A program made the position numbers and the translations under genes. 54,003 nucleotides of DNA from an uncultured Hyphomicrobium sp. GTDB taxonomy: Bacteria; Pseudomonadota; Alphaproteobacteria; Rhizobiales; Hyphomicrobiaceae. The notes beneath the pieces were generated by a model, which was not told the origin of the DNA, ran no database searches, and saw only the letters and a program-made list of their open reading frames with translations. Below, piece after piece: positions 31,413-47,062 of this stretch (the stretch's first letter is position 1; each line of letters opens with the position of its first letter). The DNA lies in the NCBI RefSeq assembly GCF_902826555.1, contig NZ_CADEFI010000023.1:1-54003 (forward strand). The letters run 5' to 3'.

Positions 31413-31942
31413 TTGGGCTTGTCCTCCGCTAGGAGGCGGTTCTTCACCAGCCAGCGGACGCCGTGCGCCCAGGCTTCGTCGGTGTTGCCCTGGATGAGCA
31501 CGCTCGACGTGCTGACAAGCTTGCTTTGCGCGACGTCGACGATGGCCACCGTCAGGCTCAAGTGCGTCTCCGAGATCTTGTCGATCAGGCTCGTCATGAC
31601 GAGATCTGCCTTGGCCTTGCCGGCGATGTCGATCTCGCAGCCGTTGCACTGGAAAATAGGCTGCGCCGCCGTGATGTCGGCGGCGATCGGCGCAATGTCG
31701 ATGACATCGTAGCGACCATTGGCGGACAGCAACTTCTGCAGCTGGTCGCGCGCCATGTCGAGACGGCGCTGCTCATCGGGACTTGGTCCGCGTTTGGCCG
31801 TGAAAAAATCCTCCTCGGACGACGGGAACGACATGTCGACCGGGAAAATTGCCAGCTTGGGCGCCGCCCCGGCAGCAACCGGGAACGTCAACGCCGCAAC
31901 GATCATCAGAGCAAGCCAAGCCGCCACTCGACCAATTCGCAT
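31409..31942 (-). CDS. DUF2380-like exported protein
   Basis: A 177-residue protein with a signal peptide (about residues 1-26, ending AAGAAPK) and then KLAIFPVDMSFPSSEEDFFTAKRGPSPDEQRRLDMARDQL, NGRYDVIDIAPI, FQCNGCEIDIAGKAKADLVMTSLIDKIS and TSSVLIQGNTDEAW. This fits DUF2380/DUF3280, periplasmic proteins of unknown role; the CNGC pair could be a disulfide. It is the first gene of the minus-strand operon. The ATG at 31942 is favoured; one four codons upstream sits too close to the AGGAGG. Confidence 0.7.
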   Translation of the reverse strand: MRIGRVAAWLALMIVAALTFPVAAGAAPKLAIFPVDMSFPSSEEDFFTAKRGPSPDEQRRLDMARDQLQKLLSANGRYDVIDIAPIAADITAAQPIFQCNGCEIDIAGKAKADLVMTSLIDKISETHLSLTVAIVDVAQSKLVSTSSVLIQGNTDEAWAHGVRWLVKNRLLAEDKPK

Positions 31943-32178: not shown

Positions 32179-33540
32179 ATGAACGTTTCAACTGGGCCGG
32201 CATATCGGCCCGCCCGGTCTGTTTTGTGCCGTCCCCATGCCCCTTACCCTAGGGGATTTTCCTTCATTGCCGCGGCTTTTCTCCTGCTTGCTGCGCCGCT
32301 TCCCGTGCGGGCACAGGAGGGGGCACCTGAGGCCCCGGCAGCTCCTTCTGCGGCACCGGCGGCGCCTGCCGCACCCCCTGCCGCCGAGGCAGCGGCAAGC
32401 GATCCGGCAGCGCTGAAGATCCGTATTCTGATGGCTCGCGAATTGCGCGAGGATCGCCTTCCGCCGCTGTCGCTGCTCGATATCCCGCCGCCGGACGACG
32501 GCGTTGCCGGCGCCAAGCTCGCCATCTCCGACAACAATACGACGGGACGCTTCCTGAAGCAGGAGTTTACCCTCGACATCGTGCAGGCGGCAACGCCGGC
32601 TGAACTCGTGGCCGAAGTCGTAAAGCGCGTGGACGAAGGCATCGCGTACGTGGTTGCCGATGCTTCCGCCGGCACGTTGCTTCAGCTCTCCGACGCTCTC
32701 AAGGACAAGGACGCGGTCGTCTTCAATGCTTCCGCACCCGACGAAGCGCTCCGCGAGGAGCAGTGCCGGGTTAACATCAAGCACACTGCGCCATCGCGCT
32801 CCATGCTGACCGACGCGCTCGGGCAATACCTGGCGTGGAAGCAGTGGCGCAAATGGGTGCTCGTGGTCGGCCCTGCGCCCGAGGACAAGCTCTATGCGGA
32901 TGCCGTGCGGCGCACGGCGAAGCGTTTCGGACACAAAATCGTCGAGGAGCGGTCGTTCGCCTACGATCCCGGCAGCCGGCGCTCCGATGGCGGCTTCGAG
33001 CAAATCCAGCAGCAGATCCCGAGCTTCATGCAGGGCCTGCCCGAGCACGACGTGGTCGTGGTCGCGGACGAAGGCGAGCTGTTCGGCGAGTATTTCCCTT
33101 ATCGCACCTGGATTTCGCGACCGGTGGTGGGAACGGCCGGGCTGTTCGCAACGCCCTGGCATCCGGCCATCGAACTCTGGGGCGGTACGCAGTTCCAAAA
33201 CCGCTTCAAGCGTCTCGCGGGACGGACGATGCGGTCGCTCGACTACAACGTCTGGGAGGCTGTGCGCTCGGTCGGCGAGGCGGCGACGCGCAAGAACTCG
33301 GCGGATCCCAAGGTCCTCATTCCCTACATGCGCTCGCCGGAATTCGAGCTTGCGGCATTCAAGGGGCAGAAGGTCACTTACCGGGCCTGGAACGGGCAAC
33401 TGCGGCAGCCCGTCGTGCTCGCGACGGCCAAGATCCTCGTGACCGTTTCACCTCAGCCGGGCTTCCTGCACCAAACGACCGAGCTCGATACGCTGGGAGT
33501 CGATCAGCCAGAAACAAAGTGCACCGCCTTCAAGAAGTAA
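32179..33540 (+). CDS. PQQ-alcohol-dehydrogenase-associated ABC substrate-binding protein
   Basis: A 453-residue exported protein: long signal region, a low-complexity Ala/Pro stretch (about residues 48-75), then a branched-chain-amino-acid-receptor-like fold (IRILMARELREDRLPPLSLLDIPPPDDGVAGAKLAI... VVGPAPEDKLYADAVRRTAKRFGHKI). The family occurs only near PQQ dehydrogenase genes and corresponds to the binding component of the PedA1A2BC system needed for lanthanide-dependent growth in Pseudomonas putida. The first of five co-directional genes. The ligand is not proven; a lanthanide complex is the current idea. Confidence 0.82.
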   Translation: MNVSTGPAYRPARSVLCRPHAPYPRGFSFIAAAFLLLAAPLPVRAQEGAPEAPAAPSAAPAAPAAPPAAEAAASDPAALKIRILMARELREDRLPPLSLLDIPPPDDGVAGAKLAISDNNTTGRFLKQEFTLDIVQAATPAELVAEVVKRVDEGIAYVVADASAGTLLQLSDALKDKDAVVFNASAPDEALREEQCRVNIKHTAPSRSMLTDALGQYLAWKQWRKWVLVVGPAPEDKLYADAVRRTAKRFGHKIVEERSFAYDPGSRRSDGGFEQIQQQIPSFMQGLPEHDVVVVADEGELFGEYFPYRTWISRPVVGTAGLFATPWHPAIELWGGTQFQNRFKRLAGRTMRSLDYNVWEAVRSVGEAATRKNSADPKVLIPYMRSPEFELAAFKGQKVTYRAWNGQLRQPVVLATAKILVTVSPQPGFLHQTTELDTLGVDQPETKCTAFKK

Positions 33541-33568
33541 TGTGCGCGAACGACCAAGGAGCTTCGAC

Positions 33569-34549
33569 GTGACAATCAAACGGCAAGGCCTCGTTTCTGC
33601 ATTGGCCGCTTCTCTTCTTGCGCTCACGGCCTCGAACGCGATGGCCTTCAAGGTGTTCGTCTCGAACGAGAAGGAGAACACGATCTCGGTGATCGACAGC
33701 GAGACGCTTGCGGTCGTGCACACCATCAAGACCGGCAACCGGCCGCGCGGCATCATTCTCGCCAACGAAGGCAAGTGGGTGATCGTGTGTGCGAGCGACG
33801 ACCACAAGATGCAGGTGTTCGACACCAGCACCTTCGAGTTCGTCAAGGACCTGCCCTCGGGGCCCGATCCCGAGCTGCCGATCCTGCATACGTCGGGCAA
33901 TCCGCTCTACGTCTCCAACGAGGACGACAACCTCGTCACCGTCGTCGACATCTTCAAGGGCACGATCATCACGGACGTTCCGGTCGGCGTGGAGCCCGAG
34001 GGCATGGGTATGAGCCCGGACGGAAAGATCCTGGTCAATACGTCCGAGACGACGAACATGGCGCATTTCATCGATGCGCAAACGTTCAAGAGCATCGACA
34101 ACATCCTGGTCGACAACAGGCCGCGCGTGGCGGAGTTCACTGCGGACGGCTCGCAGGTTTGGGTCAGCGCGGAGATCGGCGGAACGGTGACCGTGATCGA
34201 GACCGCAACGCGCAAGGTTCTCGGCAAGGTTACGTTCGAGATTCAGGGCATCACCAAGGATGCGATCCAGCCGGTCGGCGTTCGCATCACGAAGGACGGC
34301 AAGAAGGCGTTCGTTGCGCTTGGGCCGGCCAACCGCGTGGCGGTGGTCGATGTTGCGACGCGGAAAGTGGAGAAGTACCTGCTGGTCGGCCAGCGGGTCT
34401 GGAACCTCGGCTTCACGCCTGACGAAAAGCTCCTATTTACCACCAACGGCACCTCAAACGACGTCTCCGTGATCGAGGTTGCGGCCGAGAAAGTGACCAA
34501 ATCGATCAAGGTCGGCCGGTATCCGTGGGGCGTGGTGGTCGCGCCTTGA
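33569..34549 (+). CDS. YVTN beta-propeller protein of the PQQ-ABC system
   Basis: A 326-residue periplasmic beta-propeller: signal peptide ending near AMAFK, then at least six blades with the pattern FVSNEKENTISVIDSETLAVVHTI, YVSNEDDNLVTVVDIFKG, WVSAEIGGTVTVIETATRKV, FVALGPANRVAVVDVATRKV and FTTNGTSNDVSVIEVAAEKV. This is the repeat protein that accompanies PQQ-dehydrogenase-linked ABC transporters. A second propeller of the same class lies at 45375-46346. The GTG at 33569 has AAGGAG seven bases upstream. Confidence 0.85.
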   Translation: MTIKRQGLVSALAASLLALTASNAMAFKVFVSNEKENTISVIDSETLAVVHTIKTGNRPRGIILANEGKWVIVCASDDHKMQVFDTSTFEFVKDLPSGPDPELPILHTSGNPLYVSNEDDNLVTVVDIFKGTIITDVPVGVEPEGMGMSPDGKILVNTSETTNMAHFIDAQTFKSIDNILVDNRPRVAEFTADGSQVWVSAEIGGTVTVIETATRKVLGKVTFEIQGITKDAIQPVGVRITKDGKKAFVALGPANRVAVVDVATRKVEKYLLVGQRVWNLGFTPDEKLLFTTNGTSNDVSVIEVAAEKVTKSIKVGRYPWGVVVAP

Positions 34550-34711
34550 CCGGAGCCGAGATGCATCTCAAATGCGGAACTCTTTCGTGGTGACAGAGCA
34601 AAGCTACCTGTCCAAGGTATCGTCGACTGATACATGTGGATGGGTGATAGTTACCGCCCAGAAAGATCGGATCGGCGTCCGGTCGCCCCTCACCGGAAAG
34701 CTCGGACAGAC

Positions 34712-35500
34712 GTGAACGATACCGCCAAACATAACCAGGGCTCGGCCTCGTCCGAGCCGGATGCGCTCGTCGTCAATGGCGTAAGCCACAGCTTCGGCGA
34801 GAAGCGCGTGCTCGACAACGTTTCGCTTACAGTGCCGCGCGGGTCGTTCGCCGTTCTCCTCGGCCTCAACGGCGCGGGCAAGTCGACCCTCTTCTCACTC
34901 ATCACGCGCCTCTACGACAACGTCTCGGGCGAGATCCGCATTCTGGGCCATGACGTGAGGCGCTCGCCCGGCGCCGCGTTGCAGCGGCTCGGCGTCGTAT
35001 TCCAATCGAAGACGCTGGATCAGGATCTTTCGCTGCACCAGAACCTGCTCTACCACGCCGCTCTGCATGGTTTCGGGCACCTAGAAGCGCGGCGGAGGGC
35101 GGCGGAGGCGCTTGCCATCGTCGGACTGTCGGATCGGGCGCACGAAAAGATCCGCAACCTTTCGGGCGGCCAGAGCCGGCGCGTTGAAATCGCCCGCTCG
35201 CTCATGCACCGGCCGGGATGCCTGCTGCTCGACGAAGCCACCGTCGGGCTCGACATCGGCTCGCGGGAAAGCGTAATCGGGATCGTGCGCGGCCTCGTGC
35301 AGCGCCAGGGACTCGGCGTGTTGTGGGCGACGCATCTCATCGACGAAATCGCGGATACCGATCTCATCGTGGTGCTGCACAAAGGAAAGGTCATGTTCTC
35401 AGGGCGGCTCGACGGCTTCCTGGCGGAGACGGGAGCCAAATCGGCCCGCGATGCGTTTCGCATCGTGACGGGAACGACCTCGACGGAGGAGGCGGCATGA
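34712..35500 (+). CDS. lutE: ABC ATPase of the PQQ-linked / lanthanide system
   Basis: A 262-residue ATPase with Walker A GLNGAGKST (51-59), signature LSGGQSRRVEIA, Walker B CLLLDEATVGLD and H-loop THLIDE. It belongs to the ATPase family paired with PQQ-alcohol dehydrogenases (PedB in Pseudomonas, LutE in Methylorubrum). I used the GTG at 34712; an ATG at 34634 would add 26 residues unlike the family. The stop overlaps the permease ATG. The symbol rests on family and order, not on a full alignment. Confidence 0.82.
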   Translation: MNDTAKHNQGSASSEPDALVVNGVSHSFGEKRVLDNVSLTVPRGSFAVLLGLNGAGKSTLFSLITRLYDNVSGEIRILGHDVRRSPGAALQRLGVVFQSKTLDQDLSLHQNLLYHAALHGFGHLEARRRAAEALAIVGLSDRAHEKIRNLSGGQSRRVEIARSLMHRPGCLLLDEATVGLDIGSRESVIGIVRGLVQRQGLGVLWATHLIDEIADTDLIVVLHKGKVMFSGRLDGFLAETGAKSARDAFRIVTGTTSTEEAA

Positions 35501-36585
35501 ACGTCGACATCGTGCGACCCGCCACGACCATCGAGGCGCAATACGGGGCCGACGCGCCCCGCCGGCTCGGGCCGTTGGGCTACCTCGCCTGCTTCCGCGG
35601 TATCGTCTGGCGCGAGGTGCTGCGCTTCCTGCATCAGCGCGAGCGGTTCTTCTCGGCGCTGGTGCGGCCGCTGGTATGGCTGTTCATCTTCGCCGCCGGC
35701 TTCCGGCAGGTGCTCGGCGTCTCGATCATCCCACCCTATGAGACTTATGTTCTCTACGAGGTGTATGTCGTGCCCGGCCTGCTCGGCATGATCTTGCTCT
35801 TCAACGCCATGCAGTCATCGCTGTCGATGGTGTACGACCGCGAGACCGGCGCCATGCGCACGCTGCTCGTCAGCCCGTTCCCGCGCTCGTTCCTGCTGCT
35901 GTCAAAGCTCGTCGGCGGCGTGGCGGTGGCTGCGATCCAGGCCTACGTGTTCCTCGGCATCTTCTATTTCTGGGAGGCCGACATTCCCTACACGGCGCAT
36001 CTTGCGCTACTCGGCGTGCCGGCACTTCTGTTCGTACTGCTCATCTTCAATGCGGCGACAGAGGTGTTCTCCGAGACCGTGATCGGGCGCATCATCATCG
36101 CCGCCACCGTGATCGAGGTCGCTATCCTGGCGGCTGCCGTCGCCTACTGGCAGCTTCCGCCTCCCTCCATGAACTATTTCGCGGTGTTGCCGGCGCTCCT
36201 GCTTGCTGGCCTCATGCTTGGATCCCTGTCGCTCTTCATCTCGTCGGTCATCAAGCAGCTCGAGAATTTTGCCGGCGTCATGAACTTCGTCATCTTCCCG
36301 ATGTTCTTCGCCTCGTCCGCACTCTATCCGCTGTGGCGGATCCGCGAGAGCAGCCCGTTGCTGTACGAGATCTGTCTCGTCAATCCGTTCACCTATGCGG
36401 TCGAGCTGATCCGCTTCGCGCTCTACGGGCAAATCGGTGCGCGCCTCGAGGACGGCTCGCTCGACCTTACAAACCTTTATGTTGTCACGGCTTATACGGT
36501 GCTCTTCCTAGGAGCGGCCGTCTATGCTTATAACCCCTCCAAGGGATTGATCGCCCGGCGCGGCGGCCCCGGCGGTGGGGGGTGA
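35497..36585 (+). CDS. lutF: ABC-2 type permease of the PQQ-linked / lanthanide system
   Basis: A 362-residue inner-membrane protein with six to seven hydrophobic segments and the ABC-2 pattern VYDRETGAMRTLLVSPFPRSFLLLSKL, then FASSALYPLWRI and NPFTYAVELIRFALYG. It is the partner of the ATPase (four-base overlap) and resembles PedC/LutF. ABC-2 permeases are mostly exporters, yet this family is required for lanthanide use, so the direction of transport is open. The end GGPGGGG is low-complexity. Confidence 0.82.
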   Translation: MNVDIVRPATTIEAQYGADAPRRLGPLGYLACFRGIVWREVLRFLHQRERFFSALVRPLVWLFIFAAGFRQVLGVSIIPPYETYVLYEVYVVPGLLGMILLFNAMQSSLSMVYDRETGAMRTLLVSPFPRSFLLLSKLVGGVAVAAIQAYVFLGIFYFWEADIPYTAHLALLGVPALLFVLLIFNAATEVFSETVIGRIIIAATVIEVAILAAAVAYWQLPPPSMNYFAVLPALLLAGLMLGSLSLFISSVIKQLENFAGVMNFVIFPMFFASSALYPLWRIRESSPLLYEICLVNPFTYAVELIRFALYGQIGARLEDGSLDLTNLYVVTAYTVLFLGAAVYAYNPSKGLIARRGGPGGGG

Positions 36586-37355: not shown

Positions 37356-37943
37356 TTACGGGACGGGCGTGGCTTTCACGAGATCGAAGCCGGCTTGCTG
37401 CCAAGCGTCGGTACCTTCGGAAAACCAGATCACGTTCTTGTAGCCCCAGCTCAAGGCCCTTTTGCCGGCGTTCCAGGACATCCAGCAGTCCTTGAGGCAA
37501 AAGAACACCACGGGCTTGGCGAGATCGCCACCCGTGAGGTTCTTGAGGCGCGATGTGAAATAGGTCTCGAACTCCGCGGAGAGCACGCCGTAGCCGACAT
37601 TGGGAAGCCAATGGGCGCCGTCGATGGTCATGTGGGTCAGATCACGCCAGACGGTACCTGCGGGCAGGTTGGGCGGTTTCGGCGCACGCGGAAACACATC
37701 GATGAAAATAGCGGATCCGGCCTTGAGCAGCGTCTCGGCCTCGTCGGCATCGATCACACGGGCGCCGGTCAGAGTCTTGGGAACGGGCTTGCGGTAGTCA
37801 TCCGTGCGGTAGCCTTCAGGCTCGGAGACGTCAAACTCCTCGGCAGCGATGGCGCCGAGCGCGAGACAAAGCGAGAGCGCGGCGACGGGGACTGCCCCGC
37901 GCACCGCGCTCCATGCAAGTCGGATCAATGTCCCCCGGCGCAC
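37356..37943 (-). CDS. PQQ-associated Cys/Trp-motif rhodanese-like protein
   Basis: A 195-residue exported protein. After the signal (to about residue 34) it has a rhodanese-like fold: ARVIDADEAETLL, AIFIDVFPRAP, then VVFFCLKDCWMSWNAGKRALSWGYKNVIWFSEGTDAW. The motif here is Cys149-Leu-Lys-Asp-Cys153-Trp154 at the place where rhodaneses have their active-site loop. The family is known only beside PQQ-dependent dehydrogenases and is called the CXXCW protein. A thiol-disulfide or sulfur-transfer role is inferred. It is convergent with the gene before it and on the same strand as xoxFGJ. Confidence 0.82.
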   Translation of the reverse strand: MRRGTLIRLAWSAVRGAVPVAALSLCLALGAIAAEEFDVSEPEGYRTDDYRKPVPKTLTGARVIDADEAETLLKAGSAIFIDVFPRAPKPPNLPAGTVWRDLTHMTIDGAHWLPNVGYGVLSAEFETYFTSRLKNLTGGDLAKPVVFFCLKDCWMSWNAGKRALSWGYKNVIWFSEGTDAWQQAGFDLVKATPVP

Positions 37944-38041
37944 GCCGCACGTTCCGTTGTTTGTTAGTGGGTCTCACGTCGCACGGGGGCCTGCCGTATC
38001 AGCGAAATCCGCTTGCAGCGGTGGTCCCCGAAGCGTCTTTC

Positions 38042-38911
38042 TCAGTTCGTGCTCTTGGCGAAGCGCGGCTCGGTGATGAGCTTGTTGTCCTCGTCGACCA
38101 ACGGCACGCCGTACTCCAGCAACACCTTGTCGATGTCGCCCTGACGCTTGGCGATGACGTTGTTGATCTCATGCTTCCAAGCCGTCTCGCCGGCGCGCAC
38201 GCCCATGGTGATGCGATACTCGAGGTTGGGCAGGCCGGGCTGCTTGGCCTCCAGCATGGGGCTCACGTGAAGCTCCTCGCCGCCGCGCTTGGAGTACCAG
38301 CCGGCGTAGGGACCCCAGAGGACCCCGACGTCGATCTCGCCCGAGCGCACATCGTTGACCATGTCCTGCATGGGGTTTTGATAGCGCGTGTCGACGATGA
38401 AGAGATACGACTTGGCGGTGGGCATCAGGCCGGCCTTGGCCACGTAATCCGCAGCGGGCGCGCCCGCCTGGATGCCGACCTTCTTGTCCTTGAGCTTAGG
38501 ATCCAGGATCGAGGTGACGCCCTCGAGGCCCGAGCCCTTCTTCGTCACGAGCGCGTACGTCGTGCGGTAATAGTGATTGGTGTTGAGCGTAAACTCATCG
38601 GCCTGGACGGTGCCCATGATGAGGTCGCAGCGCTTCTCCGACAGCGTCTTGCGTACGAAGCCCGTGCCTTGCGGGAACCACGTATACTCGACCCTGGGGC
38701 GCTTCAGCTCGTCGGCAACGATGTGCGCGATCTTGTTCTCCAACCCCTCATCTTGCTCGTTGGAGTAGGGAAGGTTGGCAGGAGTTGCACAGACGCGGAG
38801 AACGTTGCGGTTCACAGCGTCTGCGAGATGGCCTTCGGCAGCGCCGGCACCGCCGGAGGCGGCAACCAGGCTACCGACAATGATGGCAGCGAATGCGGCG
38901 TGCTTTCTCAT
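38042..38911 (-). CDS. xoxJ: quinoprotein-associated periplasmic binding protein XoxJ
   Basis: A 289-residue exported protein with signal peptide to about residue 25 and a type II solute-binding fold: LRVCATPANLPYSNEQDEGLENKIAHIVADEL, RCDLIMGT, and DVGVLWGPYAGWYSKRGG. XoxJ homologues (MxaJ in the calcium system) bind no known solute and are thought to help activate or load the dehydrogenase or to couple it to its cytochrome. AGAGGAAG precedes the ATG. Gene order xoxF-xoxG-xoxJ on the minus strand is standard. Confidence 0.92.
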   Translation of the reverse strand: MRKHAAFAAIIVGSLVAASGGAGAAEGHLADAVNRNVLRVCATPANLPYSNEQDEGLENKIAHIVADELKRPRVEYTWFPQGTGFVRKTLSEKRCDLIMGTVQADEFTLNTNHYYRTTYALVTKKGSGLEGVTSILDPKLKDKKVGIQAGAPAADYVAKAGLMPTAKSYLFIVDTRYQNPMQDMVNDVRSGEIDVGVLWGPYAGWYSKRGGEELHVSPMLEAKQPGLPNLEYRITMGVRAGETAWKHEINNVIAKRQGDIDKVLLEYGVPLVDEDNKLITEPRFAKSTN

Positions 38912-38959
38912 GCTTCCTCTCTTGTTGCTTGAGGCAGCCGCCGAAAACTGCCAACTCGA

Positions 38960-39547
38960 TCAGCCTCCGATGCAGCTCTTCTCTGCCTCGATCGCCTCTT
39001 TGGGCTTCTCCGCGCGCTGGTCAGCGCTCAAGCGACCGCCCTGCAGGGCGTCGGTGGAGCGTGCGCGCAGGTAGACATAAAGATCGTCGATGTAACACAT
39101 GACGTTCGGGTTATCGCCGAGGGCGGGCATGATGTACTTGGTGCCAGCCACGTCGCGCTCCTGACCGCTCGAAACGACCTGGAGGAACTTCTCGTAGGTC
39201 ATGTTCTTGAGGGAGTCCTTCAGCGCGGGGGCGAAGGTGGAGCCTTCGGCGTTGGGGCCGTGGCAGACGTGGCACTCAGCGTGATAGCGGCGCCAGCCGG
39301 AATAGGTGTTCCAGTCAACCTGGATGACGTGATCGGTGTTCGCCGGATCGCGCTTGACGTCGTAGGTCGGCGTGCCGTCAGGGAGGACCCACTTGCCGTC
39401 CACGAATTTCTTACCCTCCTGGAAGGGCTTCTCGAAGACCGGATCCGGAACCGGGGCCTTGTCGTCCTGCGCGAATGCAGTGCCCACCGAAAGAGCCGCC
39501 AGGCTCAAGCCTGCGGCAACGACTAAACTAAAACCAAATCTCTTCAC
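38960..39547 (-). CDS. xoxG: cytochrome c electron acceptor XoxG
   Basis: A 195-residue periplasmic cytochrome c: signal peptide ending AFAQDD (about residue 26), a long N-terminal arm with the XoxG-type WVLPDGTPTYDVKRDPANTDHVIQVDW, haem motif CHVCH (92-96), and axial Met140 in YIMPALGD. Cys151 and Cys192 may pair. XoxG accepts electrons from XoxF. The start is GTG with GGGGA upstream. It lies 222 bases after xoxF with a hairpin between, so it is probably made at a lower level. Confidence 0.92.
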   Translation of the reverse strand: MKRFGFSLVVAAGLSLAALSVGTAFAQDDKAPVPDPVFEKPFQEGKKFVDGKWVLPDGTPTYDVKRDPANTDHVIQVDWNTYSGWRRYHAECHVCHGPNAEGSTFAPALKDSLKNMTYEKFLQVVSSGQERDVAGTKYIMPALGDNPNVMCYIDDLYVYLRARSTDALQGGRLSADQRAEKPKEAIEAEKSCIGG

Positions 39548-39720
39548 GCGCGTCCCCTGTTTCCTAATGGGTCTTCCTACCGTCTGTTCCTGGTTTTCAC
39601 AACTCCCGAACCAGGAACATCGATCTCACAATCCGGTGTATTTTTCCCGGGTCTTTCTTCAAAACTTGGTGACGCCGCCTCGCCGCTCAAGTGGTTTTGA
39701 AGATTACATTCAAGCAATAA

Positions 39721-39746
39721 ACCGGCGCGGGTTTCCCCGCGCCGGT
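39721..39746 (-). terminator. hairpin between xoxF and xoxG
   Basis: A perfect 11-bp stem: on the minus strand ACCGGCGCGGG, loop GAAA, CCCGCGCCGGT, then TTTATTGCTTG. The tetraloop is of the stable GNRA type. It starts 24 bases after the xoxF stop. It looks like a terminator with partial read-through into xoxG, or an mRNA 3'-end stabiliser. Confidence 0.75.
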
Positions 39747-39769
39747 CCAATGTTTCCTACCGTGCCATA

Positions 39770-41593
39770 TTAGGGCAGCGTGTAGACCGTGAAGGTGCCA
39801 CCGAGATCGGTGTACGACTTCAGGCCTGCGTAGTTGCCCACTGCGCCGAGGCCGTCCGTCGGCTTGTCGAGACCAGCCGCGAGGCCGATGCCAGCCCAGC
39901 CACCGACGCCCGAGAAGAGGCCGATGTACTGCTTGCCGCCGACTGCGTAGGTCATGACGTTGCCGATGGAGCCCGAAGGCAGACGATGCTTGAAGAGCTC
40001 AGCGCCGTCCTTCTGGTCGCGGCACTTGAAGTAGCCCTCAAGCGTGCCGTGGCAAGCGATGCCGCCAGCGGTGGTGAGAACGCCCGACCACACAGAGAAG
40101 GGCTCGTCGTGCTGGTGAACGATCTTGCCAGCAGCGCCATCCCAAATCGTGAAGTGGCCCGTGTTCGTCTTACCCTCAGGCGGGAACATCGAGAGCGTCG
40201 CACCAACGTACGGCTGGCCAGGCGTGTACGAAACCTTGAAGGGCTCGTAGTCCATGCAGACGTTGTTGATCGGCACGTAGAAGAGGTTCGTCAGCGGCGA
40301 GTAGGCAGCCGGCTGCTGATCCTTGAAGCCGAGAGCGGCGGGGCAAACGTTCTTGGAGTTCACGTCTGCGCCGTTGAGGAACGTCGACTTCGAAGCGACG
40401 ACGGTCGGACGACCGTAGTTGGGCTTCGACTTGTCGAGCTCAACGCCCGTCGACCAGTTCAGATCCTCGTCGTAAGGCTGAGCGACGAGCGGCTCGCCGG
40501 TGAGGCGATCGATCGTGTAGCCGAAGCCGTTACGGTCGAAGTGGGTGAGAACCTTGCGGTCTGCGCCACCGATCTTCTGCGTGGTGAGGATCGACTCGTT
40601 GACGCCGTCATAATCCCACTCATCGAACGGGGTCATCTGGTAAGCCCAGGCGGCCACGCCGGTGTCGGGGTTACGAGCGAACAGCGTCATCGACCACTTC
40701 TGGTCGATCTGCTTGCCGTCCGGTCCAGCGCGCTGCGCCGGGTTCCAGGTCGACGGGTTGCCCGTGCCGTAATAAACGAGGTTGGCTTCCGGATCGTAAG
40801 AGGCATAGCCCCAGGTCGAACCGCCACCAATCTTCCACTGGTCGCCGGTCCAGGTCTTGAGCGAAGAATCCTTGCCGACCGGCTTGCCGAGCGACAGGGT
40901 CTTCTCCGGGTCGACGAGGATGTCGGCATCCGGGCCCATGGAGTAGGCGCGCCAGGCGCGCTTGCCATCGGCGAGGTTGTAGGCCGTGACGTGGCAGCGG
41001 ACGCCGAACTCGGCGCCAGACGTGCCCATCAGCACTTTGTCGTTGACGATCAGAACGAAGCCCGTGTGGGTCTCGCCCTTCTTGGGATCGCCGTTGACGG
41101 CCTTCCACTTCTCTTTGCCGGTCTTGGCGTCGAGGGCGACGAGCGTGGTGTCGGCCTGACCAAGGACCAGAGTGTCGCCGGCGATCTGAACGCCACGGTT
41201 AACCGTGTCGCAGCACATAACCGGGATGACCGACGGATCCTGCTTCGGAGAGTACTTCCACAGAATCTTCGGGCCCGACGGGTCCGAAATGTCGAGAGCG
41301 AACACGTTGTTCGGGAACGCGGAGTTGAGGTACATCCGGTCGCCGACAACGATCGGCGAGCCTTCGTGACCACGAAGAACGCCCGTCGAGAACTGCCAAG
41401 CAACCTTGAGGTCCTTGACGTTCGACGTGTTGATTTGGTCAAGCTGAGAATACCGCCAGCCAGAATACTGGCCCTGCTGCATTGCCCAGTTATTCGGGTC
41501 CGACGTCGCCTTCTTGACGTCATCATTCGCCCAAGTCGGCGAAGTCAGAGCGACAGTGGCGAGCAGCCCGCATGCGAGTGCACTTCTGCGCAT
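39770..41593 (-). CDS. xoxF: lanthanide-dependent methanol dehydrogenase XoxF
   Basis: A 607-residue periplasmic PQQ enzyme that oxidises methanol to formaldehyde or formate. Signal peptide to about residue 22. The vicinal disulfide Cys127-Cys128 (PVMCCDT) stacks on PQQ. Metal ligands are Glu195 (SGAEFG), Asn279 (GTGNP) and the catalytic Asp327, with the extra Asp329 two residues on (DEWDYDG). That second aspartate marks the lanthanide-using XoxF/ExaF class; calcium enzymes have Ala there. The tryptophan-docking repeats of the eight-bladed propeller are evident. By overall sequence it looks like clade XoxF5. AAGGAGG precedes the ATG. No mxaF is in the window. Confidence 0.96.
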
Positions 41594-42146
41594 CGCGCTT
41601 CCTCCTTAAAGTTCTTGCCACGCTTGCAAGCGGCAGCGAACGACAGCGTGTCACAGCCCAGAACTACGGTTTGTTGGGATTTTTTCCCTTGTTATTCCGC
41701 TGACTTACGAATGGTGGCTCTTGCACTGACGAGCCCCCTGAAGCCATCGCTACCGTGGCACCCTTTTAGACACTTTCTCGTGAGGTCCGCAAGACAATCC
41801 GTGAGACCATTTTTCTTGCAACACCGATAGGACAAGCACTCTGACCCTTTTTTTGGGCCGTTTTATCGAACTTTTTTGCGCTGCATGATCAAATGGTGCG
41901 GTGCACGCCTAATTTTTCCCGTAACAAGATGGCTGTTGGCCGTCTTGTTATTTCATTCGCGATATGCATAATTTTTGGCCCTCGTTTTTCGTTTTCGCAC
42001 CATTTTTCCCGGCCAATCGCTTGAATTCCGGGCGATTTTCCCTACTTCAGTCGGGACAAATCCGCGCGCGGCACATCCGCACGCGACGCGTTGCGCCACA
42101 CCGACCCACGGCGTAAATCCTTCGTGTCACTCCAAGAGGTTGAGCC
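41594..42146. promoter_or_regulatory. divergent promoter region of xoxF and the metallohydrolase gene
   Basis: About 550 bases without a supportable gene. It is markedly more T/A-rich than the surroundings from 41660 to 42050. It has several runs of the form AT(4-6)CCC: 41679-41688, 41912-41920, 42002-42010 and 42035-42042, two of them in the identical 10-mer ATTTTTCCCG exactly 90 bases apart. An inverted repeat lies at 41922-41950. XoxF is strongly expressed and regulated by lanthanides in this group, so this region should carry those controls; no box can be assigned. Confidence 0.5.
41922..41950. promoter_or_regulatory. inverted repeat in the xoxF upstream region
   Basis: TAACAAGATGG (41922-41932) and CCGTCTTGTTA (41940-41950) pair over 11 positions with one G-T wobble, with a seven-base spacer. 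It lies about 330 bases upstream of the xoxF ATG and 200 bases upstream of the metallohydrolase GTG. It may be an operator or an RNA hairpin in a long leader. Confidence 0.5.
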
Positions 42147-43130
42147 GTGCCCGCCAGAGATCCGTTCCGTCTCGATCGCCGGTCATTACTGCGTGCCGCC
42201 ACTGCCTTTGCAGCGCTGGCGGCTGCGCTGCCCGTGCCCAGCCGCAGGGCACGTGCCGAGGCCAGCCGCAGCGCCGCGCCGTTCGCGGTGGAAATCGCTC
42301 CCGGCGTCCACGTTCACGCAGGACAGATTGCCGAGTACGCGCCCGACAACGAAGGCGACGTTTCGAATGCGGGATTCATCGTCGGGAAAGAGGCCGTGGC
42401 GGTGATCGACACCGGCGGCAGTGCGCACGTGGGGGCGCGTCTCCGCGCGGCGGTCCGCTCGGTCACACCGCTCCCCATCCGCTATGTGATCAATACCCAC
42501 ATGCATCCTGACCATGTGTTCGGCAACGCCGCCTTCGAGCAGGACAAGCCACACTTCGTTGCACACCATAAGCTCGCTCGCGGCTTGAGCGCGCGCGCCG
42601 ACCGCTACCTCTCGGTCAACAAGGAGGCGATCGGCGAGGCGGCATTCGCTGGCACGCGGGTGGTGCTTCCGACGCTTGCCGTCACCGATCCCTTGACGCT
42701 CGATCTCGGCGGGCGCCAGCTCCAGCTCACGGCGCAAAAGACAGCGCACACCGACAATGATCTCGTCATTCGAGACGACGAGACGGGAACGCTTTTCCTC
42801 GGCGATCTGCTGTTCTCGCAGCATGCCCCTTCACTCGACGGTTCAATCCTGGGTTGGATTTCGGTGCTCGATGCGCTGACCAAAATGCCTGCCCAGCGGG
42901 TGGTTCCGGGCCACGGCCCGGCGTCCATGGCCTGGCCCGACGCGGCGAAGCCGCTCCGGCACTATCTCGAGGTTCTCACGACCGAGATCCGCGCCCTCAT
43001 CAAGGACAACCGCACACTCTCCGACGCGACTGCCACCGTGGGCCTTTCGGAAAAAGATGCGTGGAAGCTGTTCGCAGACTATCATGCGCGCAATGTGTCG
43101 GCTGCGTTCGCCGAGCTCGAGTGGGAATGA
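42147..43130 (+). CDS. quinoprotein relay system zinc metallohydrolase (SoxH-like)
   Basis: A 327-residue metallo-beta-lactamase-fold protein with a twin-arginine-like signal (DRRSLLRAATAFAALAAAL). The two-zinc site is complete: HMHPDH at 118-123, His201, Asp220 and His256 (VPGHGP). It belongs to the SoxH-like family found beside PQQ dehydrogenases and described as a quinoprotein relay hydrolase; the substrate is unknown. Related enzymes include glyoxalase II-type thioesterases. The GTG at 42147 follows AAGAGG. The SoxYZ-like gene is next, 85 bases on. Confidence 0.87.
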   Translation: MPARDPFRLDRRSLLRAATAFAALAAALPVPSRRARAEASRSAAPFAVEIAPGVHVHAGQIAEYAPDNEGDVSNAGFIVGKEAVAVIDTGGSAHVGARLRAAVRSVTPLPIRYVINTHMHPDHVFGNAAFEQDKPHFVAHHKLARGLSARADRYLSVNKEAIGEAAFAGTRVVLPTLAVTDPLTLDLGGRQLQLTAQKTAHTDNDLVIRDDETGTLFLGDLLFSQHAPSLDGSILGWISVLDALTKMPAQRVVPGHGPASMAWPDAAKPLRHYLEVLTTEIRALIKDNRTLSDATATVGLSEKDAWKLFADYHARNVSAAFAELEWE

Positions 43131-43215
43131 GTTCGCATGGGCGGGCGAGAACGGCCCGTAAAGACCGACGAAGCGACAAGAAGCCAAGCGCCAAAGCGCC
43201 GAACTGGAGGACATC

Positions 43216-44040
43216 ATGGTCCCGACCGTCCGCATCACAGTCCCCTCCGCTCTCCTTCGCGGAGCGGCGGGCTTAGCCCTCGCGATGCTCGTCGCCGCAG
43301 GTGGCGCGCGAGCCGCCGACGAGGACGTGTGGCCGGCCCTCGAGAAGGACCTCTTCGGCGGGCGCACGGTCGTGGAGGACACGAATGCGGTCGTGCTCGA
43401 GGCGCCCTATCGGGCCGAGGATGCCGCGCTCGTTCCACTCACGATCCGCATTCCTGCCGCCAGCGCCAAGACGATGAAGAAGCTCATGCTCGTCATCGAC
43501 AAGAACCCGGCGCCGCTGGTCGCCGATTTCACGTTCGGCCCGGCGGCCGGTGACGGCGAGCGCGTGATCGAGACGCGCGTGCGCGTCGACATGTACTCCA
43601 ACATTCGCGCCATCGTGGAGACCGGCGACGGAAAGCTCGTCATGGCGACGAAGTTCGTGAAGGCGGCGGGAGGATGCTCCGCGCCAGCGCTCAAGGATAC
43701 GGACGCGGTGCTCGCAGAAGCCGGCAAGATGCAGATCAAGCACCTTGCCGCGACGGCCGACGGGCAGCGGGTAGGTCAGATCAAGATCCGTCACCCGCAG
43801 TACTCGGGCCTGCAGCTCAACCAGGCGACCGGCTACTACATACCCGCCAAGTTCCTGCGCGTCATCGACGTTGCGCGCGGCGGCGAGCGCGTGTTTCGCA
43901 TGGAAGGCGGCATCTCGCTCTCGGAAGATCCGAACATCCGCTTTACCTATGCGGGCGGAGGCGACGAGGCGATCGAGGTGACGGCCGAGGACACCGACGG
44001 AAAGGTGTTCAAGGGGCAGGCCGGGCCGAAGGGCTCGTAA
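43216..44040 (+). CDS. fused SoxYZ-like carrier protein, quinoprotein-associated
   Basis: A 274-residue periplasmic protein: signal peptide to about residue 33, a SoxY-like domain (about 38-150), then GGCSAPA with Cys154, and a SoxZ-like immunoglobulin domain (about 175-270; IKIRHPQYSGLQLNQATGYYIPAKFL). Cys154 is the only cysteine in the protein and sits where SoxY carries its covalently bound sulfur intermediate, except that here it is in the linker between fused domains. The cargo in this family is unknown. GGAGG precedes the ATG. A strong terminator follows. Confidence 0.87.
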   Translation: MVPTVRITVPSALLRGAAGLALAMLVAAGGARAADEDVWPALEKDLFGGRTVVEDTNAVVLEAPYRAEDAALVPLTIRIPAASAKTMKKLMLVIDKNPAPLVADFTFGPAAGDGERVIETRVRVDMYSNIRAIVETGDGKLVMATKFVKAAGGCSAPALKDTDAVLAEAGKMQIKHLAATADGQRVGQIKIRHPQYSGLQLNQATGYYIPAKFLRVIDVARGGERVFRMEGGISLSEDPNIRFTYAGGGDEAIEVTAEDTDGKVFKGQAGPKGS

Positions 44041-44114: not shown

Positions 44115-44501
44115 TCAGAAGCAGCGGATCTCGCCTTCGACCTGGGCCCGCTTCAGGTTCTTGACCTTCTCGAGCATGGCGGGTGCGTACATATAGGCGA
44201 CGCTCTCGCCACCCCGCTGGCGCACCGACATGATGGTCTCGGCTTCCTCGTACTGGTCGTAGGGCAACACGGATGCGATGACATCGATCGAGCAAGCGCA
44301 CTTGTCGAGGACGTCGCGCGTCGTGCCGTTGACCAGCATGCATCCGTAGATGTAGTCGCCGCGCGTGGCGGTCGGATAGTCGTTCACCAGCTTCGCCGCC
44401 GTTTTGTGCTCGGCGCATTCCTCGCCGATGGCGGCAGCGCCTGCGGCTATCAGTGCCAATCCTGCCGTTGCCAGAACCTTAGTCAGCTTGCTCATCGTCA
44501 T
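44115..44501 (-). CDS. small cysteine-containing exported protein
   Basis: A 128-residue protein with a signal peptide (to about residue 25) and a small helical mature part with five cysteines (EECAEH, YGCML, DKCACS, EIRCF) that may form disulfides. No domain recognised. The ATG overlaps the stop of the gene upstream (ATGA), so the two are coupled. Similar small proteins occur next to xox genes; whether it contacts the dehydrogenase or metal is unknown. Confidence 0.62.
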   Translation of the reverse strand: MTMSKLTKVLATAGLALIAAGAAAIGEECAEHKTAAKLVNDYPTATRGDYIYGCMLVNGTTRDVLDKCACSIDVIASVLPYDQYEEAETIMSVRQRGGESVAYMYAPAMLEKVKNLKRAQVEGEIRCF

Positions 44502-45178
44502 TTGGCTTCTCCCACACCCACGACCTTGATGTGCTCCTTAAGCTCGGGACCTGCCGCCTGCGTGCTCACGAAGTCGGACTGGAGATCAACGAAGAAGCCC
44601 GGCACTTGGTTGCTGACCACGATCGTAAATGCCGATTTGTGGAAGCCCTGCATTTTGCTTGCACTGGGATCCTCGGCAAACGGCGCGATAGCGACCTTGA
44701 ACGCGTCGATCTGCTTGCCGTTGTAGTCGACCTTGACCGGCTCGGCGTCTGCACCGGCGAGGGCCTCGCGGATCTTGTGCTTCAGGTACATGTGGCTGCC
44801 GCCAGCCAGCGAGTTGAAGGTCGAGACTGCGCGGTCGAGGTACCAGATGAACAATGGATTGATGGTCAGATCCGGCCAGTTCTGCGGATCGCGTGCGTTA
44901 GCGCCGGTGAAAATCTTGAAGATGACCTCGCGGGCGCCCTTGTCGTCGACCTTGGCCACGCTGAGGCGGATGTCGTCGGCGTAGTCCTTGCCGACGAGTT
45001 GCTCGTTGGAGCCCGTCTTCTCGAAGCGGTAGGTGACCTCGGAGCCCTTATCGATCAGGTCGAGCTGGCGGGTCTCAAACAGGATGGCGGCGGCCTTCGG
45101 CTCTCCGGCAGCGAGGGCCGCCGTGACCGGAAGCAAGGCCAGGCACAGAATTGCCGACGCACGTGCAAATCGGGACAT
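44498..45178 (-). CDS. exported protein of unknown function, xox neighbourhood
   Basis: A 226-residue protein: signal peptide (ARASAILCLALLPVTAALA), then a soluble region with AAAILFETRQLDLIDKGSEVTYRFEKTGS, a DDIRLSVAKVDDKGAREVIFKIFTG strand pair, PLFIWYLDRAVSTFNSLAGGSHMYLKHKIREAL and VVSNQVPGFFVDLQSDFVS. It reads as a single beta-rich periplasmic domain, and I know no family function. The ATG at 45178 begins the signal peptide; AAAAGGAGG is a few bases upstream. A gap of 196 bases separates it from the propeller gene, so it may have its own promoter. Confidence 0.65.
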   Translation of the reverse strand: MSRFARASAILCLALLPVTAALAAGEPKAAAILFETRQLDLIDKGSEVTYRFEKTGSNEQLVGKDYADDIRLSVAKVDDKGAREVIFKIFTGANARDPQNWPDLTINPLFIWYLDRAVSTFNSLAGGSHMYLKHKIREALAGADAEPVKVDYNGKQIDAFKVAIAPFAEDPSASKMQGFHKSAFTIVVSNQVPGFFVDLQSDFVSTQAAGPELKEHIKVVGVGEAK

Positions 45179-45374
45179 GTAACGTTTTCCTCCTTTTGGG
45201 CGCCATTCCGGCAGCCTTCTTGGGAAGTCTTCTAGCGCCAGGGGGGGCCTAGCGGCAATCTCCCGATCATGAAATCTCTGCAAGGCTTCGTTACCGTGCG
45301 TGAAAATGCCGTGTCCGAGCCCAATTTGCGGGCCCGAGGCTCCGCCAACCGAAGAGGCCGCGACCGGGCGGCTT

Positions 45375-46346
45375 TCATCTCAGGAAGAGGCCGAACGCCC
45401 GGGGACCGTCGCCGACGGCAATGCGCGCCGTGACCTCGAGAGTTGCCGTATCAATCCGCTCGAGCGTATTGGCCTCCCAGCAGGCCACGTAGACGGCCTT
45501 GCCCGTGGGGTCGGCCTCGATCCCTTCGGGGTAGTCGCCAACCTCGATGGTTTTCACAACGGCCAGTGTGGCGAGGTCGAACACCGTGACGGTGCCTCCG
45601 TACTGGTCGGTGACAAAGGCCCGACCGCCGGCGAGGGCCACGGCATAGGGGCGGTGGCCGACCTTGACGGTGCCCACGACCTTGCCTGCCGAGAGATCGA
45701 TGACGCTCACGTCGTCGCTGCCGACGTTGGCCGTGTAGGCGCGGCGCCCCTCGGCATCGACGGTGACCCCGAAGGGCCGTTCGCCCACCATGACGGTGCC
45801 GGTGCGCTGGAGCGTCGCCGCATCGATGAGAGAGACCTGGTTGCTGTCGCGGTCGGCCGTGAGGATGCGTGCGCCGTCCTTCGTCACGGCGACGCCCGAC
45901 GGCGATTTGCCGACCTCGACGCTGCCTGCGATTTTTGCCGTGGCCGGATCGACCACGTAGAGCTTGTGCTCATACCAATCGGCGACATAGACGCGGTCGC
46001 TCTTGGGATGCACCGCTATTCCAAGCGGCCCCTGCCCCACGGTCATGCGCGAGGCGATCGCGCGCTTGTCCGCATCGACGATCACCAGCTCCTTGCTTTC
46101 GGGAGAGGTGACGTAGGCGAACCGGCCGTCGGCTGAGACAGCAATACCCGCGGGCTTGCCGCCGATCTTGATCTCGGGCGCGGCGGTGCCGGCCGCGAGA
46201 TCAACGATCGAGAGCGAATCGCCCGTCTGGTTGGTGACAAAGGCTTCGCGTGCCGCGTCGGGATCCGCATCTGCAGATCCCGCACCCAGCCCGCAGCAGA
46301 AAGCCAGCACCAGCGCTATGCCCGCGAAGCGAGGGCCTGCCGGCAT
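45375..46346 (-). CDS. YVTN beta-propeller protein (second copy)
   Basis: A 323-residue exported propeller: signal to about residue 28, then seven blades such as FVTNQTGDSLSIVDLAAG, YVADWYEHKLYVVDPATAK, LTADRDSNQVSLIDAATLQ, YTANVGSDDVSVIDLSAGK and FVTDQYGGTVTVFDLATLA. It is related in pattern to the propeller at 33569 but not a close copy. Its start overlaps the SRPBCC gene's stop. A role as a periplasmic scaffold or binding protein for the quinoprotein system is inferred from position. Confidence 0.82.
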   Translation of the reverse strand: MPAGPRFAGIALVLAFCCGLGAGSADADPDAAREAFVTNQTGDSLSIVDLAAGTAAPEIKIGGKPAGIAVSADGRFAYVTSPESKELVIVDADKRAIASRMTVGQGPLGIAVHPKSDRVYVADWYEHKLYVVDPATAKIAGSVEVGKSPSGVAVTKDGARILTADRDSNQVSLIDAATLQRTGTVMVGERPFGVTVDAEGRRAYTANVGSDDVSVIDLSAGKVVGTVKVGHRPYAVALAGGRAFVTDQYGGTVTVFDLATLAVVKTIEVGDYPEGIEADPTGKAVYVACWEANTLERIDTATLEVTARIAVGDGPRAFGLFLR

Positions 46347-46873
46347 CAGCCGCCTTCCAGCTTCTTCTTCAGGGCTTCGAGGCCGGATTTGTAAACGCCG
46401 GTGACCGCCTTGACGGCCGCTTCGTCGCTGAGCTCCGGCGGCGGGTCGTTGTTGACATAACCGCGGTAGAACGCGCCCTTCCATTCCACCTTGGATTTAT
46501 CGCCCTCGGGGGTGACGGTGAACGAGGCGGAATAGTTCGTGACCGGCACGACCTTCACATCGACCTCGGTGATCTCATAGCTGAGGGTCTTGCCCTCGGC
46601 GTTGTACTTGGTCAGCTTCTCGAAGATCTGACCGCCGCCCTCGACCGTAAGCGTACGCGTGGCGCCGACGTCATTGCCGCCCTTGCCCTCTGTCTTCTTG
46701 AAGGCCGGATGCCAGCCCATGTCCTGGAAGTTTCCGACCACGGCCCACACCTTGTCGGCGGGCGCGTTGATGTCTACGGTCTCGACGACCTTCTGGCGCG
46801 AGGGACCGTGCGCGGATGCCGCAAGCGGCATCAGGCATACAAGGGCCAGGAACGAAGCAAACAATCTAACCAT
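46346..46873 (-). CDS. exported SRPBCC-fold protein
   Basis: A 175-residue protein with a signal peptide (to about residue 21, ASAHG) and an SRPBCC/START-like helix-grip domain: VVETVDINAPADKVWAVVGNFQDMGWHPAFKKTEG, RTLTVEGGGQIFEKL, and a long C-terminal helix. Such folds enclose small hydrophobic ligands. GGAGGACTCCCG precedes the ATG. It leads the two-gene unit with the propeller and is divergent from fhcB (189 bases). The ligand is unknown; periplasmic SRPBCC proteins are uncommon. Confidence 0.78.
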   Translation of the reverse strand: MVRLFASFLALVCLMPLAASAHGPSRQKVVETVDINAPADKVWAVVGNFQDMGWHPAFKKTEGKGGNDVGATRTLTVEGGGQIFEKLTKYNAEGKTLSYEITEVDVKVVPVTNYSASFTVTPEGDKSKVEWKGAFYRGYVNNDPPPELSDEAAVKAVTGVYKSGLEALKKKLEGG

Positions 46874-47062
46874 CGGGAGTCCTCCAGGGATTCGTAATCT
46901 GCTAGCCCTATCGCAAGCCGGCGCCGGACAATAATTAAGACTGGGTAAGGGCGCAATCGATGTGCTGATCCGTCGCCCGCAGCGCAGCATTCAACGTTGT
47001 TGTCTTGGACTTAAGTCCATGCTTTGGTTCCGCGCCAAATCAAATCACGAGACCGGTTGAAC

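Follow-up and report, generated by a model that had tools for sequence, protein, structure and literature searches.

What do proteins that resemble parts of the Sox system do beside a lanthanide-type methanol dehydrogenase? The question arises from contig NZ_CADEFI010000023.1 of an uncultured Hyphomicrobium sp. (assembly GCF_902826555.1), of which the stretch analysed, hereafter the window, comprises 54,003 nucleotides (positions 1 to 54,003, forward strand). There, the genes for XoxF, a pyrroloquinoline quinone (PQQ)-dependent alcohol dehydrogenase (ADH), and for a XoxG-like cytochrome and a XoxJ-like binding protein are flanked by a set of three genes coding for a fused SoxYZ-like carrier, a SoxH-like metallohydrolase and a rhodanese-like protein. 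XoxF-type enzymes play a central part in the use of methanol in soils and seas, and SoxY carriers bind sulfur. A preliminary description of the window had suggested that the lone carrier cysteine may hold a C1 or sulfur adduct, for example a hydroxymethyl thioether that is oxidized to a formyl thioester and released by the hydrolase, thereby limiting formaldehyde leakage. The genome surveys reported here tie the set to PQQ-ADHs independently of SoxB, and the three proteins are tentatively proposed to act as a periplasmic thiol relay that would clear sulfur nucleophiles from the PQQ enzyme, chiefly its lanthanide type.

The set is of a kind already known, with NCBI families named for PQQ dehydrogenases, and has been discussed in recent papers. 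Published ideas range over a part in carbon metabolism, the formation of disulfides, stabilisation of the cofactor, and the shielding of PQQ or methanol dehydrogenase against sulfur species (PMC12997753, PMC11237559, PMC11582611; statements on these and other cited papers refer to excerpts of their text).

Organization of the gene set

The set and the xox genes occupy the following positions:

37356..37943, minus strand: rhodanese-like protein, TIGR03865 (PQQ_CXXCW), loop C149-x3-C153-W (NCBIfam 219.3 bits, cut-off 128; Pfam Rhodanese 22.7 bits, cut-off 22.2)
38042..38911, minus strand: XoxJ-like periplasmic binding protein, TIGR03871 (282.3 bits, cut-off 212)
38960..39547, minus strand: XoxG-like cytochrome c, TIGR03874 (182.9 bits, cut-off 161.8)
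39770..41593, minus strand: XoxF, lanthanide-type PQQ methanol dehydrogenase (TIGR03075, 663 bits, cut-off 480; motifs and tree position)
42147..43130, plus strand: SoxH-like di-zinc metallohydrolase, TIGR04559 (400.6 bits, cut-off 280; conserved ligands)
43216..44040, plus strand: fused SoxYZ-like single-cysteine carrier, TIGR04557 (255 bits, cut-off 140; model positions 1-226 of 226)

The xoxJ, xoxG and xoxF genes thus form a minus-strand block (38042-41593), with the rhodanese-like gene after xoxJ and the SoxH-like and carrier genes divergent from xoxF, an order common to other Hyphomicrobium loci. A plus-strand lut-type ATP-binding cassette (ABC) set and a LutG-like gene precede the rhodanese-like gene and the block, and two small minus-strand genes follow the carrier. 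Coordinates and NCBIfam cut-offs agree with the three genes that the preliminary description had placed around xoxFGJ. Chance association or misreading of the three genes is ruled out by the family cut-offs, the synteny and the co-occurrence described below.

Distribution of the set among genomes

A survey of 190 Pseudomonadota genomes yielded 42 with scores over the TIGR04557 cut-off; 21 of these were excluded because their match extends across a stop codon that divides it into separate soxY and soxZ, and none of the excluded genomes is among the 37 that possess a PQQ-ADH. The fused carrier is accordingly present in 21/190 genomes, spanning 8 families of the sample. All 21 contain a PQQ-ADH over cut-off, as compared to 16 of the 169 others (Fisher p 3e-18, relatedness ignored), with up to seven ADH candidates scored per genome, so that ADHs may be missed in G000 (the genome of the window), G054, G130, G146 and others. 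Likewise, the rhodanese-like protein exceeds its cut-off in 20 of the 21 carrier genomes and in none of the 169 (p 4e-26, relatedness ignored). SoxH does so in 16 genomes, all within the 21, and the remaining five have a weaker match directly beside the carrier. SoxB over cut-off was detected in 8 of the 21 carrier genomes and in 15 of the 169 others; the set does not depend on it. The earlier proposition that the set goes with PQQ dehydrogenases and not with thiosulfate oxidation is borne out by these counts.

Presence of a PQQ-ADH does not entail the set: four genomes of the sampled family f11 have one to six PQQ-ADHs each and lack it.

In a second sample of 318 alphaproteobacterial genomes, some of which, such as G000, G004 and G028, belong to both samples, strict limits (carrier E 1e-54, rhodanese-like protein E 1e-30) left weaker relatives uncounted. 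The fused carrier was found in 23 of these genomes and the rhodanese-like protein in 9, all inside those 23, so that the carrier represents the wider core and the rhodanese-like protein a narrower component. Neighbourhoods were fetched for 20 of the 23, the other three (G000, G004, G028) being covered by separately fetched regions; of these 20, 15 have SoxH and 14 have a PQQ-ADH, which in ten cases reaches an XoxF-like score of more than 900 bits. Nine of the 23 carrier genomes are 0.8 to 1.8 Mb in size (71 to 97% estimated completeness), five of them with a XoxF-like gene within the examined flank. In G296, G320 and G414 the carrier gene directly adjoins xoxFGJ, and no SoxH was seen in the flank (the G320 carrier is at a contig end); Orf6 and Orf7 genes (see below) lie beside the carrier in G296 and G414.

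At three loci from low-GC genomes of 1.2 to 1.4 Mb (L236, L238, L245), the carrier, xoxFGJ and pqq genes (pqq assigned by eye) are packed within less than 20 kb, in some cases together with orf6/orf7 or a LutG-type gene.

Sulfur-oxidation genes in the Hyphomicrobium genome

The genome to which the window belongs contains three fused carriers and one separate soxY-soxZ pair. SoxB gave no match in the whole genome, and the same search detected SoxB over cut-off in 23 others. SoxA also gave no match, but the control genomes were silent too; no search was made for SoxX or SoxC/SoxCD. As far as SoxB shows, therefore, no complete sox operon that could employ the carrier is present elsewhere in the genome. 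The separate soxY-soxZ pair (L008:7513-10252, G000:C21) is located on another contig beside a flavocytochrome c sulfide dehydrogenase-like gene. A second fused carrier (L006:1-20000, G000:C16) lies between two XoxF-like enzymes and adjoins a protein with an FGE-sulfatase domain, on a contig with five PQQ-ADHs over cut-off; no SoxH was found in the 20 kb around it.

Properties of the three proteins

NCBIfam and Pfam profiles resolve the carrier into a SoxY and a SoxZ half within a single chain with one arm cysteine. Its sequence is similar to those of solved SoxY (2ox5, E 2e-10) and SoxZ (1v8h, E 1e-4) but remains well under the cut-offs for true SoxY (75.5 vs 125) and true SoxZ (45.5 vs 76). 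Cys154, located in the motif GGCSAPA, is invariant in 84/84 aligned carriers, and in each of the 84 this position is the sole cysteine of the mature part, which confirms the single cysteine noticed earlier and rules out an internal disulfide. The arm reads GGCSAPA in 62 of the 84. The nearest relatives of the carrier are from Hyphomicrobium; a viral scan for it returned 34 pattern matches, none of which was confirmed.

Of the neighbourhoods analysed for 80 of 213 confirmed carrier relatives, 64 have a SoxH gene no more than 1.5 kb from the carrier. Proteins with pentapeptide repeats are found repeatedly next to the set, recognized by Pfam at L232:7204-8040 and L048:4559-5434 and by eye at L206:4573-5247 and L204:16840-17133; in L232 the respective gene sits between SoxH and the carrier.

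The SoxH-like protein combines its score over the TIGR04559 cut-off with a full set of di-metal ligands, as had been described: H118, H120, D122 and H123 are conserved in 66/69 sequences, H201, D220 and H256 in 69/69. A motif near the N-terminus, RRSLLR, is taken by us to be Tat (twin-arginine translocation)-like. The structure model (predicted local distance difference test, pLDDT, 97.8) matches metallo-beta-lactamase folds, with a Burkholderia metallo-beta-lactamase superfamily protein, chlorothalonil dehalogenase, class B beta-lactamases and alkylsulfatases as best solved matches. Glyoxalase II is not among the best 50 fold matches listed, by which its likeness is not excluded. These matches are a generic metallohydrolase answer and do not separate a thioester from a sulfonate substrate.

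In the rhodanese-like protein, the two cysteines of the Cys-x3-Cys-Trp loop, pointed out before, are both kept in 48/48 aligned sequences and in 17/17 of a further alignment. The 'CXXCW' of the NCBI name is loose, the actual spacing being C-x3-C-W. In genomes G028 and G143, genes for the carrier, the rhodanese-like protein and a WCPIC thioredoxin stand in a row (L204:13553-16758, L207:6470-9835 and L210:6940-9859; twice in G143, which has three carriers in total, the surroundings of two having been fetched). A DsbD_TM (DsbD/CcdA-type) gene comes next in G028 and at one of the two fetched G143 loci (L204, L207). Judged from these sequences, the row looks like a reducing chain into the periplasm, and the thioredoxin and DsbD_TM genes point to a thiol that needs to be kept or made reduced. 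No relative of the L204 thioredoxin was found in the window. The NCBI model for a rhodanese/DsbD fusion, TsoB, matched weakly (window protein 24.9 bits, G143 DsbD-like protein 24.5, cut-off 805).

XoxF and other PQQ-dependent alcohol dehydrogenases

The XoxF of the window possesses the lanthanide-type Asp (WDYD) and a vicinal cysteine pair at residues 127-128. It was compared in an alignment of 89 ADHs from the 37 PQQ-ADH genomes, one of 90 listed rows (below cut-off) being left out. The lanthanide-type Asp occurs in at least one scored ADH of 20/21 genomes with the set (G054 being the one without) and of 9/16 genomes free of it, which makes a lanthanide requirement as such a weak explanation of the set. 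The adjacent-cysteine motif has been proposed as common denominator (PMC12997753). It is present in 54/59 ADHs of the set genomes and in 30/30 ADHs of the set-free ones; the motif therefore does not call for the set, and the idea that the set is required for the vicinal disulfide was rejected in that form.

A closer relation is apparent from the tree, in which the clade including the window XoxF (support 0.97), presumably XoxF5, is made up of 16 set genomes and one set-free genome, G070. In five of the 21 carrier genomes no XoxF of this lineage is among the scored ADHs (up to seven candidates per genome). Near-identical PedH-like enzymes are found in set genomes (G062, G146) as well as in a set-free one (G058). 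The Hyphomicrobium genome itself encodes eight PQQ-ADHs over cut-off, including one that its motif and its place in the tree mark as MxaF-like.

Neighbouring genes

Further features of the window are:

32179..36585, plus strand: LutA/LutB/LutE/LutF-type ABC set (TIGR03863, TIGR03866, TIGR03864, TIGR03861; lut names by comparison with PMC7391723)
36575..37339, plus strand: gene following the LutF-type permease, by this position a LutG orthologue; two cysteines conserved
44115..44501, minus strand: small protein, Orf6 orthologue by synteny (gene order; signal-like N-terminus by eye)
44498..45283, minus strand: Orf7 orthologue by synteny (open reading frame (ORF) as listed, true start probably later)
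46346..46990, minus strand: MxaD-like SRPBCC protein (Pfam PF10604, 121.9 bits; MxaD name by analogy with PMC7391723)

The Orf6 and Orf7 assignments rest on G028, where the order xoxF, xoxG, xoxJ, three ORFs, an Orf6-type gene, a gene of the 44498 type, pqqE, pqqC and pqqB matches the numbering META1p1740 to 1750 (PMC7391723 Table 1), so that the two genes correspond to orf6 and orf7 by synteny. The growth rate on methanol with La, 0.16 per hour without a deletion, was reported to be lowered to 0.03 and, following a lag of 9 h, to 0.08 when these genes are deleted (PMC7391723). Neither protein has an NCBIfam or Pfam match. Orf6 has four cysteines (54, 68, 70, 127) invariant in 60/60 sequences and a predicted all-helical fold (pLDDT 89.5) for which Foldseek returned no PDB match at E 0.001 or better. 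It occurs in 17/190 genomes, exactly those of the XoxF clade and including set-free G070. Its link to this clade, the four cysteines and the predicted fold were not found described in the excerpts of PMC7391723, the sole relevant orf6/orf7 paper found. The LutG-type protein (Cys 77 in 43/44, Cys 231 in 44/44; two sub-threshold Pfam matches only) is present in 16/190 genomes, which are the set-bearing members of the XoxF clade.

An NMT1/SsuA-type ABC importer (binding protein, permease, ATPase) is encoded at 28911-31649 (minus strand). These families recur near the carrier, the binding protein in 22/83 and the permease in 19/83 sources; relatives of the binding protein of the window occur in 25/202 scanned sources, its own included.

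Relation to known systems

The three proteins exceed the cut-offs of TIGR04557 ('quinoprotein dehydrogenase-associated SoxYZ-like carrier'), TIGR04559 ('quinoprotein relay system zinc metallohydrolase 2') and TIGR03865 and share with the systems of these families the neighbourhood of PQQ-ADH, XoxG and XoxJ; there is no difference in kind. The same three proteins are encoded beside PQQ-ADHs in the Pseudomonas putida ped cluster (PP_2666, PP_2677, PP_2678) and in M. extorquens AM1 (META1p1703-1705), with the differences that the P. putida enzymes are PedE/PedH and that the AM1 operon has an extra thioredoxin-like gene (PMC12997753). Fused carriers of the symbiont clades SoxYZ-S2 and SoxYZ-S4 likewise occur together with soxH next to a PQQ-ADH or xoxF; it was suggested that they act in carbon metabolism or protect from thiosulfate, and the Thiodiazotropha genomes concerned also have SoxB (PMC11237559), which gave no match in the Hyphomicrobium genome. 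With the Sox thiosulfate system (SoxXA-SoxYZ-SoxB) the carrier shares SoxY and SoxZ domains and the arm cysteine. In contrast to that system, it is fused, has the arm GGCSAPA instead of GGCGG (as in the NCBI model name), comes without a SoxB match and is linked to PQQ-ADHs. SoxH has been reported to compensate for missing SoxB in Sulfurimonas (PMC11237559).

The set is not discussed in the excerpts of PMC12423496, PMC12628762, PMC10848612 and PMC10875860. No paper combining SoxYZ, formaldehyde and thioester was found, a weak absence with most subscription journals outside the scope.

Proposed function and alternative explanations

It is possible, though well short of probable, that the three proteins constitute a thiol relay of the kind outlined at the outset. 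The lone arm cysteine of the carrier would take up a covalent adduct, the SoxH-like enzyme would hydrolyse this adduct off the carrier, and the rhodanese-like Cys-x3-Cys protein would reset or load the carrier thiol, supplied in some genomes by thioredoxin and a membrane protein of the DsbD/CcdA type. Sulfur nucleophiles, for instance sulfite, thiosulfate or a persulfide, are favoured as the cargo; these would otherwise add to PQQ or open the vicinal disulfide of the dehydrogenase, and hydrolysis of a carrier S-sulfonate could give sulfate and the free thiol. The Cys-Cys rhodanese loop, accompanied in two genomes by thioredoxin and DsbD/CcdA, is no less compatible with thiol or sulfur chemistry than with an aldehyde route. 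In Hyphomicrobium denitrificans, thiosulfate inhibits growth on methanol and not on formate, for which PQQ-sulfur adducts were suggested (PMC12997753), and the same species has a SoxYZ fusion and SoxH near the YeeE-like pmpAB (PMC11582611).

Several observations weigh against the thiol relay. The pmpAB genes do not respond to thiosulfate, and the authors of that study found nothing to indicate that they act in oxidative sulfur metabolism (PMC11582611). Inspection of the recurrent neighbours by eye, with 10 proteins run against Pfam, revealed no conspicuous YeeE-like gene. Among PQQ-ADH genomes SoxB is not clearly enriched with the set (8/21 vs 2/16, p 0.14), and no more than 8 of the 21 carrier genomes have it over cut-off, so that these data do not document a sulfur load. 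Components are also missing: carrier genome G019 lacks the rhodanese-like protein, as do 14 of the 23 carrier genomes in the second sample at the limit of E 1e-30 (G210 and G331 hold divergent copies), and SoxH was not seen in 5 of the 20 neighbourhoods (three at contig ends or on a short contig). A thioredoxin partner was seen in the fetched regions of only two of the 21 set genomes, a 20-bit match in G175 about 8 kb from the carrier being left out of this count, and the thioredoxin/DsbD pair was dismissed as a general partner. Finally, random barcode transposon sequencing in P. putida without rare earths revealed minimal effect (PMC12997753).

Formation, isomerisation or repair of disulfides by the set, either in the dehydrogenase (vicinal Cys-Cys) or in partners such as the four-cysteine Orf6, is rather unlikely. 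The Cys-x3-Cys loop, the thioredoxin and DsbD-type partners in two genomes and the invariant cysteines of Orf6, encoded next to the carrier, would suit such a role, and disulfide formation or cofactor stabilisation is the hypothesis of the authors of PMC12997753. Against it stand the vicinal cysteines in all 30 PQQ-ADHs from the 16 set-free genomes and G070, which has XoxF of the window lineage and Orf6 without the set. A screen in AM1 that selected mutants making less toxic formaldehyde via XoxF1 hit xoxG, xoxJ, orf6, orf7, lut, pqq and cytochrome maturation genes, among others, at least four times; META1p1703-1705 are not in this list (PMC7391723 Table 1), and a search of the available text of that paper for 1703, though not for 1704 or 1705, found nothing. 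These results argue against the set being essential for the formation of active XoxF, although paralogues could mask such a role.

The same absence from the AM1 list would be expected for a step after formaldehyde formation, and thus suits the route in which the carrier thiol traps the aldehyde released by the dehydrogenase, the hemithioacetal is oxidized to a formyl or other acyl thioester and SoxH hydrolyses the latter, limiting leakage. The link of the set to aldehyde-making PQQ-ADHs and the assignment of SoxH to the metallohydrolases by family and fold are in line with this, as is G130, where the carrier, SoxH and ADH genes run in one direction with genes assigned by eye to a cytochrome, a binding protein and an aldehyde dehydrogenase. 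Still, the route appears quite improbable: the set is tied more to one XoxF lineage than to aldehyde output, with the four f11 genomes lacking it; no dedicated hemithioacetal oxidase was recognized among the recurrent neighbours (XoxF itself not excluded); the closest solved folds listed for SoxH are metallo-beta-lactamases, a dehalogenase and alkylsulfatases; and the rhodanese-like partner is left unexplained. The set follows one XoxF lineage (16/17 genomes) and yet is also found without that lineage, which makes a role confined to formaldehyde unlikely; the formyl-specific version was rejected on the five carrier genomes with no XoxF of this lineage among the scored ADHs. From the preliminary description, the lone-cysteine carrier, the hydrolase and the thiol protein tied to PQQ-ADHs stand, and the restriction to formaldehyde is not supported. 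It is similarly doubtful that a periplasmic protein equivalent of the glutathione formaldehyde route exists here, with an aldehyde-derived group from the lanthanide dehydrogenase held on the lone cysteine and released as acid by SoxH; the carrier is retained next to xoxF even in assemblies of about 1 to 2 Mb.

A cryptic branch of sulfur oxidation, in which electrons from sulfur compounds would enter the XoxG pool and the neighbouring dehydrogenase would be unrelated, is very improbable. It could draw on the homology of the carrier to SoxY and SoxZ and on the soxYZ pair beside the sulfide dehydrogenase-like gene elsewhere in the genome, but conflicts with the low SoxY and SoxZ scores of the carrier, the lack of a SoxB match and the 21/21 association with PQQ-ADHs.

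Conclusions

The survey of 190 genomes gives the set clean boundaries that are new here: every carrier genome has a PQQ-ADH, SoxB is not needed, the vicinal cysteines are not the reason, and one XoxF lineage has the set in 16 of its 17 genomes. It also separates the set from Orf6, Orf7 and LutG, for which loss phenotypes on methanol with lanthanum have been recorded. A thiol relay may accompany XoxF-type enzymes, and the competing ideas on its function become testable in laboratory strains.

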